This document shows positions 750 through 37,546 of a DNA stretch of 37,546 nt, piece after piece; position 1 is the first letter of the stretch, and the number at the start of each line of letters is the position of its first letter. The stretch comes from Campylobacteraceae bacterium. GTDB lineage: Bacteria; Campylobacterota; Campylobacteria; Campylobacterales; Sulfurovaceae. Below the pieces are notes generated by a model that was given only the letters and a program-made list of their open reading frames with translations, had not been told where the DNA came from and did not search any database. The DNA lies in the NCBI GenBank assembly GCA_026996165.1, contig JALWMP010000142.1:1-37546 (forward strand), in the 5' to 3' direction. The position numbers and the translations under genes are program-made.

Positions 750-777
750 TCTACTGACATAATGTAAACTCTAGACT

Positions 778-876
778 GGTAACGAAGCTCCAGCTTCGTT
801 ACCCAATATTGGAGTTACAATAGCTTTAATTTGTTATTGTTTCTCCCATATGCATCCCAAAGCTGGAGCTTTGGGA
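778..876 (+). repeat. Composite palindromic repeat, copy 1 (palindrome A 778-803, spacer 804-854, palindrome B 855-876)
   Basis: A: GGTAACGAAGCT-CC-AGCTTCGTTACC (12-bp perfect arms). B: TCCCAAAGCT-GG-AGCTTTGGGA (10-bp perfect arms). The spacer shares CTCCCATAT next to palindrome B with the copy at 24575-24664. Confidence 0.8.
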
Positions 877-909
877 CGAGTTCAAAATATAAATGTAAAG
901 GAACAAAAA

Positions 910-1791
910 ATGAAAAAGATAATAACATTAACAACACTTTTAACAACAGCAATATTTGCACAACTAAACGTAGCAACAACCTACAACTACTTAGGAAAAG
1001 TAACCAAACGAATAGGAGGAGATTTAGTAAAAGTAGATGTCTTAGCTTCTCCTAAACTTGACCCACACTTTATTACCCCTAAGCCTTCACTTATTGGTAA
1101 GCTTAGACGAGAAGATTTACTCATCATAAATGGTGGGCAACTTGAAATTGGTTGGATTCCACCTCTTTTAAGAAGTGCCAATAACAGTAAAATCCAAAAT
1201 GGAGGTAGTGGTTTTTTAGATGTAAGTAGAGCAGTTACACTCATAGATAAACCTGTAAATGTATCAAGAAGCATGGGTGATGTTCACCCTGATGGAAACC
1301 CTCACTTTGCTACGAATATAGATAATATTGTTCCAATAGCAGAGCTTATTAGTATGAAGCTCTCACAGCTTGACCCAACTCATCAAGCTACTTACAATAA
1401 AAATTTTGAAGAGTTTAAAGGAAAAATGGAAGAGCTTAGTAGCAAACTGAAAAAAGAGTATGCCTCATGTCAAGGTAAAAAAGTGGTACAGTATCATGAG
1501 CTTTTTAACTATGCTATTGAGTTTTATGGTATAAAAAAGATAGGAGATATTGAACCACTACCAGGTATAAGCCCAAGCTCTAAACATACATTAGAACTTA
1601 TCAATACTATGAAAGAGCAAAATGTTAAAACCATTCTTCAAGATGTCTATCATGAGAAAAAAACAGCTAAGTTTATTGCCAATAAAACAGGGGCAACAGT
1701 TAAGATTGTTCCTCATGATGTAGGAGCAGTTGAGGGAACAGATACGTTAGAAGATTTCTATACTACCATTGGTAAAGAGCTATGTCAATAG
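910..1791 (+). CDS. Metal (zinc-type) ABC transporter substrate-binding protein, ZnuA/TroA-like
   Basis: ORF 850..1791; the ATG at 910 begins a signal peptide MKKIITLTTLLTTAIFA. Conserved LDPHFITPKPS, DVHPDGNPHF and YHELFNYAIEFYG metal-ligand regions. Confidence 0.85.
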   Translation: MKKIITLTTLLTTAIFAQLNVATTYNYLGKVTKRIGGDLVKVDVLASPKLDPHFITPKPSLIGKLRREDLLIINGGQLEIGWIPPLLRSANNSKIQNGGSGFLDVSRAVTLIDKPVNVSRSMGDVHPDGNPHFATNIDNIVPIAELISMKLSQLDPTHQATYNKNFEEFKGKMEELSSKLKKEYASCQGKKVVQYHELFNYAIEFYGIKKIGDIEPLPGISPSSKHTLELINTMKEQNVKTILQDVYHEKKTAKFIANKTGATVKIVPHDVGAVEGTDTLEDFYTTIGKELCQ

Positions 1792-24521: not shown

Positions 24522-24574
24522 GAGAGGTCTCCGTAGAGTGCAATTTCTATCGCACTAATTTTAAATTAGACTTG

Positions 24575-24664
24575 TTCCCAAGCTCTAGCTTGGGAATTAA
24601 TATGGGAGTAAGATAAAGTATTCATAGTTTCAATAGAGGGTTACGAAACTAGAGCTTCGTAACC
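24575..24664 (-). repeat. Composite palindromic repeat, copy 2 (minus orientation: palindrome A 24639-24664, spacer 24597-24638, palindrome B 24575-24596)
   Basis: B: TTCCCAAGCT-CT-AGCTTGGGAA (10-bp perfect arms). A: GGTTACGAAACT-AG-AGCTTCGTAACC (12-bp arms, one mismatch). Reverse-complemented spacer has CTCCCATAT adjacent to B, as in copy 1. Confidence 0.8.
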
Positions 24665-24678
24665 GTAGTTTATATAGA

Positions 24679-33713: not shown

Positions 33714-36700
33714 ATGCTTGCTTTTTTAAAAAAACTTCTATTTATATGGGTACTATTTTTTAATACCTCTTTGTTAGCTGATAGTATATTACTAAAAGAT
33801 ATTTCTATCTCTGATGCCTCTTCTGTTTATGAGTATCAGAACTCTTTACAGTTTGCTGTTACCATAGAAGCTTCTCCAATGTATGGGTCAATTACTGTTC
33901 ACTATAAGACTATAAGTAATGGTTCAGCAACATCAGGAAGTGATTATACATATACAGAAGGAGACCTTAAATTTACTAGTGATGGTCCTACAACAAAAAT
34001 AATTACAGTTCCTGTTTTAAATGACACTATACATGAGCCTACAGAGCATGTTACCGTTGAAATTACAGAAAGTGCTTTGGCATATGAGATTATAGACAAC
34101 CAAGGAAATGGGACTATTTATGATGATGATTTAAAACCATTGAAGTTGACAACTTTTAATGATAAAAGTATAACAGAGACAGATTCAACACAAACTCTCT
34201 ATATGGTTGCCTATTTTAATCAAAATCTTCCATCTGATGTTAATGTAACTTATCATACCGTAGATAATACAGCTCATGCAGGAGATGATTATGTAGCAGT
34301 TTCAGGAGGTACAGTTACAGCTACAGCAGGTAATAATAGAGTTTTACTTCCAATTACAATTAATGGAGATACCTCTCCTGAATCAACAGAAGATTTTAAA
34401 GTTATTATAGACTCTATATCTAGTGGAATTATTGGTGATAGCCAAGCAACAGCAACTATTGATGATGATGATACTATTGAGGTATATAATGATTGTAGTC
34501 ATGTAGAAGAGGGCAATGAAGGAGAAAGTAGAAATTTAGTTTGTCATATATATCTAGCCAAACCATATCCAGAAGATGAACCAGATTTAAAAATTGATTA
34601 TAATTCAGAAGATGGTAGTAATCCATCAGCAGTAGCAGGAGAGGACTATACTTCTATTAGTGGTACAGTTACTTTTAAAGCAGGAGATACAGAGAAGCTA
34701 GTTTATATTCCTACTATTGGAGACAATAATATTGAAGATGATGAAAATGTCAAGTTGGTTATTTCTGGAAGTTCTGCTATTGTTGATGCTGTAGGTAAAG
34801 GAGAGATTATAAATGATGATGGAGATTTTCCAGGAGTTAATTTTTCATCAGCAAATGTATCGGTAGTAGAGGGAAATAGCTCAACTAGAACACTTAACTT
34901 TCATTGTCAATTAGATGCTGATGCTGTTGCAGATAGTTATTTTTATTATTATACTAAAGATCGTACAGCTAAAGTAAGTGACAATGATTATGTTGCTATC
35001 TCTACTACAAGATACAATATCCCAGAAGGAACTCGTGATATTAATATTCAAGTTACAGTCAATGGAGATAAAAAGATAGAAGAAGATGAACAATTTTATT
35101 TAAAAGTTAAAAATGAACATAATATTATTATTCATGGGCATACAGCCAAAGGAACTATTGTAAATGATGATGGAACATTGGCAACTTTAAGATTTGATAA
35201 GCCATCTTATGAGATTGTTGAGGGAAATAGTAGTACTAAAACATTAAATTTTACTTTAAGTTTGGATAGTCCTGCATTAGCAGGTTCATCTTTTGATTAC
35301 TATAGTTCTGATAATAGTGCTAAAGTGGCCGATAATGATTATGTTAAAATAGAAGATGATAAACATATATTTAGTGGTGGTGAGACCAGTGTAACTATTC
35401 CTGTAACAATTAATGGAGATACAAATATAGAAGATGATGAGAAGTTTTATCTTCATATCTGTAATGAGACAAATCTTACTATTTCAGGAACACAAACTGC
35501 TACTGGTAAGATTGTTAATGATGATGGTACTTATCCTAAGTTAGATATAGAAAAGAGTAGTTATAGCACCTATGAGGGAAATAGCTCAACTCATACTATA
35601 GATATTAAATTAGTATTAGATAAACCAGCATTAGAAAATACATCTTTAGACTACTATACTTATGATAAAACAGCACAAGACGGTAGTAGCCCTACAGAAG
35701 ATAATGACTATGTTGCTACTAATGGAGCATTAAATATTCCTAAAGGTAGTACTTCTGCTACACTTAAATTGACAATTAATGGAGACACCAATATTGAACC
35801 AAATGAGATGTTTATAATAGCATTAAAGAACCCTAAAAATATTACTTTTGGAAGAAGCAGTAGTGGAGTTTACATCTTAAATGATGATGAGCATAATAAT
35901 GACCCATTTGTCTGTGATGAACACATGTACCTCTCTAGTAGTAAAAAACGAGGCAGTGAAGAGACAGGGAAGATGTGGTTACATAGAATTGACACAAGTA
36001 CAAGCCCTTTTAGATTTGAAGTAATGGACGATGCAGGAGAAAATAACCTATATAATGCTATTGGGTATAACCCTGAAGATAACTATATTTATGGACTCTA
36101 CTATAGAAATTTAGTTAAGATTAGTAAAACAGGAAAGGTTATTGATTTAGGAAAAATTACTAGCTTACCAAAGGCTTTTGACTCTTATCAACTCTTTGCT
36201 GGTGCTATTTATGACAATGAACACTATTATGTAGCAGGAGTTGGGCTAAATACTAATAAAATGTATATTATTAATCTTAACGATAAGAGTGTGACTGAAA
36301 AAACTCTTTCTAAAAGTATAAATATAAAAGATTTTTCTCTCTCTCCTCATGGTAATTATCTTTATGGTATTATTGATGGTGGACAGTTTGTTAAGATAAA
36401 TACTATTTCAGGAGTGGTACAAGAGATAGGAGAGGCTCATAGTGGGGAGTTTGACTCTACTTTTTCAGATAAAAATGGTCGATTTTTTGCAAATGATAGT
36501 AAAGGTAGTGGATTTTATGAATTTAATACCAAAACTGGTGCAAAAGCTTTCCTATCTAACTCACAACCTGCTACCTTTAACGATGGAACAAACTGTCTAA
36601 ATGCTGAACTTCTCTTTACAGATTATGGAGATGCTCCTATTAGTTATGGTCCTGCATGGCATAATATTGCAAATGGCATATATCTTGGAGATAAGGTAGA

Positions 36701-37546
36701 CCACGATATTAACTCTTACGATACAGTCAATGCAGATGGAGATGACCTTAATGGAGTTGATGATGATGACGGTGTAACTTTAGTTGATGGAACAGATATT
36801 AATGGTACATACTTTGAGACAAATACAACTCATCAGATAAAAGTTAAACTCTCTAAATCTGCATATCTTAAATTATGGATAGACAAGGGTATAGATGGTC
36901 ATTTTGATGATTCAACCGACTTAATATATAGTTCAAGCTCTAAGTTATCAGCAGGGGAGCATACTATTACTTTTTCTCTTGCTGATGGATTAGTAACCAA
37001 TAAAATTACTTATCTACGGGCAAGAGTCTCATCATCTGCTAGTATGAATCCTTCAGGGTTTATAACAGATGGAGAGGTTGAAGACTATGCTATCTATTTT
37101 GGAACAGGGTTTACTCCAATACATGGAAAGTTTAATGTAGAGCGAACCAATAGTGGTAACTACACTATTAACTCAAATGAACGAAATGCGTGGTATACCC
37201 AAATAGTAGGTCGTGACTTTGACTACTCTTTAGTATTTTATAAAGATGATTTTTCAGCAGAGCAAAATATCTCAAAAATCCCTGCTAAGATAGAGCTGTT
37301 TGATATAGATAAAAATGTAACTATTTATGAACGATATATCTATATTAGTGATAGTGACTCTAATAGTAGATTTTACTTTCTCTCATCGGGAGAGAATCCA
37401 AACTCACCAACAAACGATTTAGGTGAACTCCCTGCATCTAAAGAGGTGATTTTTAGAGTTACTTACCCAAAAGATAGTTCTGGAAATATTATACAATCCG
37501 ATTGTCTTGGTACGGCTAAAGAGTGTTTTGATGCACAAACAAGTTT
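33714..37546 (+). CDS. Very large exported Calx-beta / beta-propeller-like / GEVED domain surface protein (3' end outside window)
   Basis: ATG at 33714 with aaagga RBS; signal peptide MLAFLKKLLFIWVLFFNTSLLA; frame open to the window end (at least 1277 codons). Six Calx-beta modules ending in GTIYDDD, ATIDDDD, GEIINDDG, GTIVNDDG, GKIVNDDG, YILNDDE; then MYLSSSKKRG... DUF6923-like region; then DYGDAPISYG...DGEVEDYAIYFG GEVED domain. Confidence 0.88.
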   Translation, partial: MLAFLKKLLFIWVLFFNTSLLADSILLKDISISDASSVYEYQNSLQFAVTIEASPMYGSITVHYKTISNGSATSGSDYTYTEGDLKFTSDGPTTKIITVPVLNDTIHEPTEHVTVEITESALAYEIIDNQGNGTIYDDDLKPLKLTTFNDKSITETDSTQTLYMVAYFNQNLPSDVNVTYHTVDNTAHAGDDYVAVSGGTVTATAGNNRVLLPITINGDTSPESTEDFKVIIDSISSGIIGDSQATATIDDDDTIEVYNDCSHVEEGNEGESRNLVCHIYLAKPYPEDEPDLKIDYNSEDGSNPSAVAGEDYTSISGTVTFKAGDTEKLVYIPTIGDNNIEDDENVKLVISGSSAIVDAVGKGEIINDDGDFPGVNFSSANVSVVEGNSSTRTLNFHCQLDADAVADSYFYYYTKDRTAKVSDNDYVAISTTRYNIPEGTRDINIQVTVNGDKKIEEDEQFYLKVKNEHNIIIHGHTAKGTIVNDDGTLATLRFDKPSYEIVEGNSSTKTLNFTLSLDSPALAGSSFDYYSSDNSAKVADNDYVKIEDDKHIFSGGETSVTIPVTINGDTNIEDDEKFYLHICNETNLTISGTQTATGKIVNDDGTYPKLDIEKSSYSTYEGNSSTHTIDIKLVLDKPALENTSLDYYTYDKTAQDGSSPTEDNDYVATNGALNIPKGSTSATLKLTINGDTNIEPNEMFIIALKNPKNITFGRSSSGVYILNDDEHNNDPFVCDEHMYLSSSKKRGSEETGKMWLHRIDTSTSPFRFEVMDDAGENNLYNAIGYNPEDNYIYGLYYRNLVKISKTGKVIDLGKITSLPKAFDSYQLFAGAIYDNEHYYVAGVGLNTNKMYIINLNDKSVTEKTLSKSINIKDFSLSPHGNYLYGIIDGGQFVKINTISGVVQEIGEAHSGEFDSTFSDKNGRFFANDSKGSGFYEFNTKTGAKAFLSNSQPATFNDGTNCLNAELLFTDYGDAPISYGPAWHNIANGIYLGDKVDHDINSYDTVNADGDDLNGVDDDDGVTLVDGTDINGTYFETNTTHQIKVKLSKSAYLKLWIDKGIDGHFDDSTDLIYSSSSKLSAGEHTITFSLADGLVTNKITYLRARVSSSASMNPSGFITDGEVEDYAIYFGTGFTPIHGKFNVERTNSGNYTINSNERNAWYTQIVGRDFDYSLVFYKDDFSAEQNISKIPAKIELFDIDKNVTIYERYIYISDSDSNSRFYFLSSGENPNSPTNDLGELPASKEVIFRVTYPKDSSGNIIQSDCLGTAKECFDAQTS
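33783..35890 (+). repeat. Six tandem Calx-beta coding modules, about 340-365 bp each
   Basis: Approximate modules 33783-34130, 34132-34473, 34474-34822, 34823-35172, 35173-35526, 35527-35890; each ends in a (N/D)DD motif. The last three share EGNSST. Confidence 0.75.

Follow-up and report, generated by a model that had tools for sequence, protein, structure and literature searches.

The window analyzed here, meaning the whole 37,546-nt stretch of DNA, is contig C142 of a MAG of 1.86 Mb in 192 contigs that is 87% complete (hereafter the own genome, G000). Its intergenic DNA harbors two copies of a non-autonomous, hairpin-bounded element. Copy 1 (W1) occupies positions 776-880, from CT(G)G to CGAG, as supported by further copies and by an end-to-end alignment with the ends of RAYT gene-bearing elements of related genomes. 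It contains hairpin A (778-803, plus strand; GGTAACGAAGCTCCAGCTTCGTTACC) and hairpin B (855-876, minus strand; TCCCAAAGCTGGAGCTTTGGGA), and both palindromes were found in the sequence, separated by 51 bp, as the first-pass annotation had reported. A third inverted repeat within this spacer (806-851), composed of the inner arms of both units and of residual parent end sequence, prolongs the unit. When the 109-nt stretch of copy 1 was folded as single-stranded DNA, three hairpins formed, corresponding to A, the inner stem, and B, with energies of -27.0 and -27.3 kcal/mol compared to -8.5 and -8.8 kcal/mol for shuffled sequences (z -7.5 and -8.4; 0 of 200 shuffles as good).

Copy 2 (W2; 24571-24666) has the opposite orientation, with hairpin B at 24575-24596 on the plus strand and hairpin A at 24639-24664 on the minus strand, so that the second pair, claimed to lie in the same order on the other strand, was recovered as well; its single-stranded DNA fold also departs from shuffles (z -4.8 and -5.8). 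R1, a covariance model built from the units of this family, matches copy 1 at 774-825 (plus strand, 70.5 bits) and 832-882 (minus strand, 65.2 bits), and copy 2 at 24569-24619 (plus strand, 54.9 bits) and 24617-24668 (minus strand, 48.8 bits). An Rfam search of the window gave no family match. Adjoining copy 2, at 24533-24555 on the plus strand, lies what remains of a single unit from an unrelated REP family tagged with GTAG, identified by a pattern match with two mismatches and by an intact GTAG doublet at this site in sister species.

Downstream of copy 1 lies a gene for a ZnuA-type metal-binding protein (910-1791, plus strand; PF01297, E 5e-47). Its longest ORF begins at an ATG at position 850, inside the element, and the ATG at 910, which is preceded by AAAGGA, appears to be the true start codon. 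At the far end of the window (33714-37544), the gene for a large surface-type protein runs off the contig end; the protein contains six Calx-beta repeats together with DUF6923 and GEVED.

The hairpin unit and its copies

A and B had been described as two different palindromes. When A and the reverse complement of B are both read inwards from the outside, they instead align as diverged copies of one unit of ~42 nt, inverted relative to each other and consisting of CT-N-G, an 11-12-bp stem with a short loop, and NNATATTGGAGTAA. The stem is maintained by compensatory change. In 20 units of the own genome 95.4% of stem cells are paired and 8 of the 12 pairs change on both sides; for 103 distinct units these values are 97.2% and 10 of 12, compared to 23-46% pairing when the partner is slid as a control. 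Neighboring unit pairs are inverted with the tags outside in 27 of 28 cases, the sole exception lying between two adjacent elements.

The own genome contains 15 matches to the B-type palindrome pattern (1 in the control) and 11 to the A-type pattern (4 in the control). A blastn search with the whole element detected further spacer-bearing copies (best E 1e-26 and 1e-19), located on contigs C134, C80, C179, C157 and C138, among others. At E <= 0.01, R1 gave 28 matches in the own genome and matched 78 of the family's 151 genomes; when 200 genomes were drawn from the phylum, 9 had matches at E <= 0.001. Together with the fold z-scores, the pattern counts and the spacer-bearing copies exclude chance as the source of the palindromes, and the search for further copies proposed in the first-pass annotation thus revealed A-spacer-B copies both in the own genome and across the family.

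The intergenic placement and the strong folds would also agree with independent regulatory hairpins, i.e., terminators or mRNA stabilizers of the adjacent genes that are alike by convergence, and in a terminator scan the A hairpin of copy 2 was flagged as resembling a terminator on the plus strand. However, both genes adjoining copy 2 are on the strand opposite to this hairpin, copy 1 has no terminator-like site, the T-runs are on the wrong side of the hairpins, and the same spacer and inner arms recur next to unrelated genes. Moreover, the W1 and W2 sites of sister species are without the CTNG element and hold intact GTAG doublets instead. We consider a regulatory origin to be refuted and the regulatory explanation as a whole very improbable; secondary co-option of the hairpins as RNA elements, such as near the ZnuA-type gene, may have occurred. 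The interpretation of A-spacer-B as one mobile REP/BIME- or MITE-like unit is supported as essentially right by the copies found genome- and family-wide and by the orthologous sites that are empty in sister species.

The doublet shares with REPINs the arrangement of two inverted REP units as the repeated entity. The tetranucleotide at the hairpin foot is CTNG, mostly CTCG, and not of the GTAG type. Because of this tag, and because a separate GTAG family coexists with it, we term the doublet REPIN-like rather than a member of the GTAG REPINs. This separate family (GTAGGGTGCGAT..ATCGCAC) is represented by the relic at window positions 24533-24555 and by sites on contigs C64, C117, C130 and others, and has 8 exact matches in the own genome, compared to 0 in the control; GTAG doublets are nested in CTNG elements in genomes G128 and G058. 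A CGTC-tagged REP family was considered and rejected, since its terminal CGTC, its 8-9-bp stem starting with A-T and its tail CCA, as defined in PMC3733652, all differ from the units described here.

Two further loci of the own genome carry altered forms. A single hairpin on contig C16 (L017 1501-1518; G000:C16:3251-3272) joins the left arm of A to the right arm of B and is probably the central-deletion product of a doublet. It resembles the 'double foot' REPs, which are derived from central deletion (PMC6006769). The doublet on contig C108 is interrupted between A and B by the insertion of another repeat, apparently accompanied by a TAATA duplication. This repeat belongs to a second MITE-like family, whose inverted ends are 31 bp long (ACCTGAGTTCGATGGAATATCATATCCACA) and which has 54 matches in the own genome, including sites at L005 (G000:C108:3046-3310) and on contigs C171, C153, C31 and others; another of its copies lies beside an IS200 remnant.

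The parent element and its RAYT gene

In related genomes, the same units form the termini of a parent element of ~660-720 bp, in which two inverted hairpin units (5' CT-C-G-TTCC...hairpin...GGAATGCATA 3') have a single RAYT gene directly between them. Inverted R1 pairs ~622 bp apart enclose an ORF of 177-180 aa in three of these genomes. The 177-aa ORF scores 104.8 bits against NF047646 REP_Tyr_transpos (cut-off 80), a model matched by all 29 of its 29 aligned relatives, and its Pfam Y1_Tnp score is just below the cut-off (22.7 compared to 23). At the sequence level, the TnpA_REP 4er8 is its sole significant match in the PDB. The predicted structure model (pLDDT 77, pTM 0.74) likewise has 4er8, TnpA_REP on a REP hairpin, as its best fold match, followed by the IS608 and ISDra2 transposases. 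The residues N60 H61 x H63 and Y139 are invariant in the alignment, and the motifs NHLH/NHIH, W[EQ], YIHxNP and SS are present. By family cut-off, by its HUH and catalytic tyrosine motifs and by its TnpA_REP fold, the parent gene is a REP-associated tyrosine transposase.

The association between this gene and the hairpin units is specific. Of the family's 30 best RAYT loci, 18 have R1 units on both sides, inward-oriented and at a near-constant distance. Such bracketing is absent from all 33 Y1 loci of other kinds (IS200 type, longer RAYT-like and fusion); one of the latter, L120, has two weak R1 matches and also holds a RAYT fragment. A model-free test gave the same picture, with an exact inverted repeat of at least 12 nt across the gene in 58 of 79 RAYT loci versus 18.0 when left and right flanks were re-paired. 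These 79 named loci are nearly all from Campylobacterota (Sulfurovum, Sulfurimonas, Sulfuricurvum, Arcobacter and others). The hairpin sequence varies between elements and usually matches at both ends of one element. RAYT relatives were found in 102 of the 151 family genomes, many of which have several copies and fragments, and the host range of the parent transposon comprises Sulfurovum-like and other Campylobacterota.

The RAYT link proposed in the first-pass annotation therefore holds in relatives, where the same ends enclose a RAYT gene; the cognate gene itself was not detected in the own MAG, of which 13% is missing. A RAYT-like gene does exist in the own genome, as that annotation had suggested looking for, on contig C62 (L057 1462-2232; G000:C62:40434-41204); it encodes a 256-aa protein with an HTH-like tail, its terminal repeats differ, and it is not the cognate gene. 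Mobilization of the doublet by this gene or by an IS200 copy might be proposed, as both are Y1 genes of the same genome. We regard this as very improbable: R1 units bracket neither the C62 gene nor the IS200 remnant, nor do they bracket any of 30 additional Y1 loci from relatives, and the inverted repeats on either side of the C62 gene are GGGTCAGGTRRTGAAAATAAAC (TIRYT-like) rather than A/B units. A Y1 fusion of the own genome, also considered as mobilizer, was rejected as it is not flanked by A/B units. Another ORF on C62 (L059 1414-2814; 466 aa) is Y1_Tnp-like in its N-terminal part, and its C-terminal part appears SapC-like by eye.

The ends and the ancestry of the window element were established by comparison with the RAYT elements. 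In an alignment with eight parents, the ~105-bp element consists of ~48 bp of one parent end and 55 bp of the other. The W1 spacer resembles both parent ends, the one adjoining the gene start with z 6.6 (0 of 300 shuffles as good) and the other with z 4.7; the spacers of the C134 copy and of one G058 copy agree with this result, and for the C179 spacer the similarity to the parent ends is not significant. Hairpin A of copy 1, supported by stem covariation, is assigned as the end unit 3' of the deleted transposase gene, and hairpin B as the inverted end unit 5' of it. Intermediate forms of 254 bp, which keep both gene ends, are present in G011 and G055, representing two genera, with a common deletion junction at parent positions 113|545. 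The doublet thus has both ends in common with a gene-bearing element and is without the gene, as in MITEs.

From these results, the A-spacer-B element is very probably a MITE/REPIN-like, end-only derivative of a hairpin-ended RAYT transposon that was mobilized in trans. Deletion of the RAYT gene from the parent left the two ends as the ~105-bp doublet. The HUH/Y1 RAYT would bind the hairpins in single-stranded form, cut next to each hairpin foot, at the nearly invariant CT, and move or copy the strand between the two cuts; since the enzyme would act on the hairpin ends, deletion derivatives could be mobilized in trans. One observation runs counter to a simple derivation: the stems of A and B differ within one element, whereas full elements usually have matching ends, and some doublets may therefore be chimeric or old.

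Insertion sites and mobility

The evidence for mobility is comparative and comes from draft genomes, in which repeats assemble poorly. Empty orthologous sites, which the first-pass annotation had asked to be looked for, were found in sister and other species: the C73 site is empty in G058, the C179 site in G044 and G100, and the C134, C40 and C62 sites in further species, while element sites of G092 and G044 are empty in several genomes. Occupied and empty sites are therefore polymorphic, as in MITEs. The exact insertion points are mostly blurred in sister species, since many of the sites are occupied by other REP elements or have diverged too far. In G092, the full RAYT element (C18) was rejected as an empty-site case, as its flanks map to different contigs in relatives.

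Next to the foot of the unit, C and T are nearly invariant, in 121 and 124 of 125 units, respectively. The two positions immediately outside show no constraint, and T predominates farther from the foot (86% at -2). As this holds at both ends, the elements sit between a T-run and an A-run. These flanks suggest a preference for TTT|AAA-like target sites. The empty sites at C179, C73, C40 and C62 read TTT|AAA or similar, with the exact points blurred by divergence. Characterized TnpA_REP enzymes cleave at the CT beside the REP (PMC8266576), and since CT is nearly invariant in these units, the RAYT is likely to cut there, by analogy.

Inverted ends could also indicate MITEs of a DDE transposase, generating target duplications, and two elements do have an 8-bp flank repeat (GAAATATT and AAAAATGT). 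Across the 49 elements analyzed, however, the longest shared flank words equal those of shuffled pairing, so that target-site duplications, for which the first-pass annotation had proposed a test, are not general, and the gene between the same ends is a Y1 RAYT rather than a DDE transposase. This explanation is hardly credible, and the ends are best attributed to the RAYT transposon.

The gene-bearing element itself appears to be duplicated as a unit. Sulfurovum sp. HLG_WM_MAG_03 (G122) has two full RAYT elements that are 98.9% identical over 660 bp and have unrelated flanks, located 931 bp apart on one contig (L281 604-1263 and 2195-2854). Both copies have a common stop codon and a broken HUH motif (HLH to HLY; NHLY), and for this reason cannot be self-mobilizing. 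A defective unit was apparently copied, which points to action in trans or to another copying route. In G136 two full copies are 91.7% identical. Close pairs were found only in these two genomes, and other full pairs within genomes are 67-76% identical, so current activity may be low.

These observations bear on whether the family is instead a classical REPIN/BIME one, with a RAYT that is immobile and domesticated and with gene-bearing forms that are non-moving REPtrons. This would agree with the inverted doublets, their hairpin-foot tags and high copy number, with the few divergent copies in which the RAYT usually occurs, and with the literature, in which REPtrons are held not to transpose as a unit (PMC6006769) and RAYTs to be single copy (PMC3116915). 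In contrast, the RAYT described here occurs in several copies and fragments in many genomes, and there are near-identical full copies with different flanks. The units lie exactly at both gene borders in most loci, full and small elements have end sequence inside the hairpins in common, and the graded internal deletions retain both gene ends. We consider the immobile form unlikely, though with appreciably more in its favor than the other alternatives, and prefer derivation from a mobile RAYT element.

REPs and REPINs are among the commonest bacterial repeats, and their transposon origin and usual single-copy transposase are unsettled. The chances are about even that the RAYTs of Campylobacterota are not domesticated but remain true transposons, the REPs being their own hairpin ends. 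If true, one lineage would contain the whole path that starts with an autonomous RAYT element and leads by internal deletion to free doublets of the REPIN-like kind, a state that has so far only been postulated as ancestral: Bertels and Rainey proposed an ancestral mobile element whose ends became REPs (PMC3116915). A RAYT moving as a unit would be of note, since RAYTs are held to be single-copy and immobile. The coexistence of gene-bearing elements, partial deletions and end-only doublets in related genomes provides a system for testing origin, mobilization in trans and target choice, and explains a widespread intergenic repeat of Sulfurovum-like bacteria.

Comparison with known systems

The literature searched contained no account of such REPs in Campylobacterota; Sulfurimonas gotlandica is listed in the RepRanger paper (PMC12306157), which has no RAYT analysis. 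The REPIN/BIME and RAYT system (REPtron) of Pseudomonas fluorescens SBW25 and E. coli (PMC3116915, PMC8266576) is similar in its inverted pair of hairpin units with short conserved outer-foot tags, its many intergenic copies, the RAYT link and the CT next to the unit. It differs in the tag, which is GTAG there and CTNG/CTCG here, and in that the present units have stems of 11-12 bp with a short loop, enclose the gene directly, appear to move with it and show graded internal deletions.

IS200/IS605 elements likewise have a Y1/HUH transposase, hairpin ends and no general target duplication, but IS200 ends are subterminal asymmetric hairpins, whereas the ends described here are mutual inverted repeats and the transposase is of the RAYT family. 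In TIRtrons (TIRYT; Di Nocera et al. 2013, PMC3733652), a tyrosine transposase gene lies between inverted repeats, some of them self-complementary, and repeat dimers are dispersed in the genome. The TIRs described there carry GGGGWSAS in most cases and go with proteins of greater length (subclass 2.1); TIRtrons resemble the other RAYT of the own genome (L057) and not the 177-aa RAYT.

The 177-aa RAYT fits TnpA_REP subclass 2.6 (group 5; Quentin et al. 2018, PMC6006769), an assignment made by motifs and length rather than by a tree. Its length is close to the subclass median of 179 aa, it has the NH[LIV]H, YIH[QN]NP and SS motifs, and it is flanked by hairpins without GT[AG]G that have copies elsewhere in the genome, in line with the atypical flanking hairpins reported for the subclass. 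It differs in that the subclass is reported mostly from Bacteroidetes and not Campylobacterota, in its W motif, which is WE or WQ, and in that its hairpins are the strong inverted ends of a compact element.
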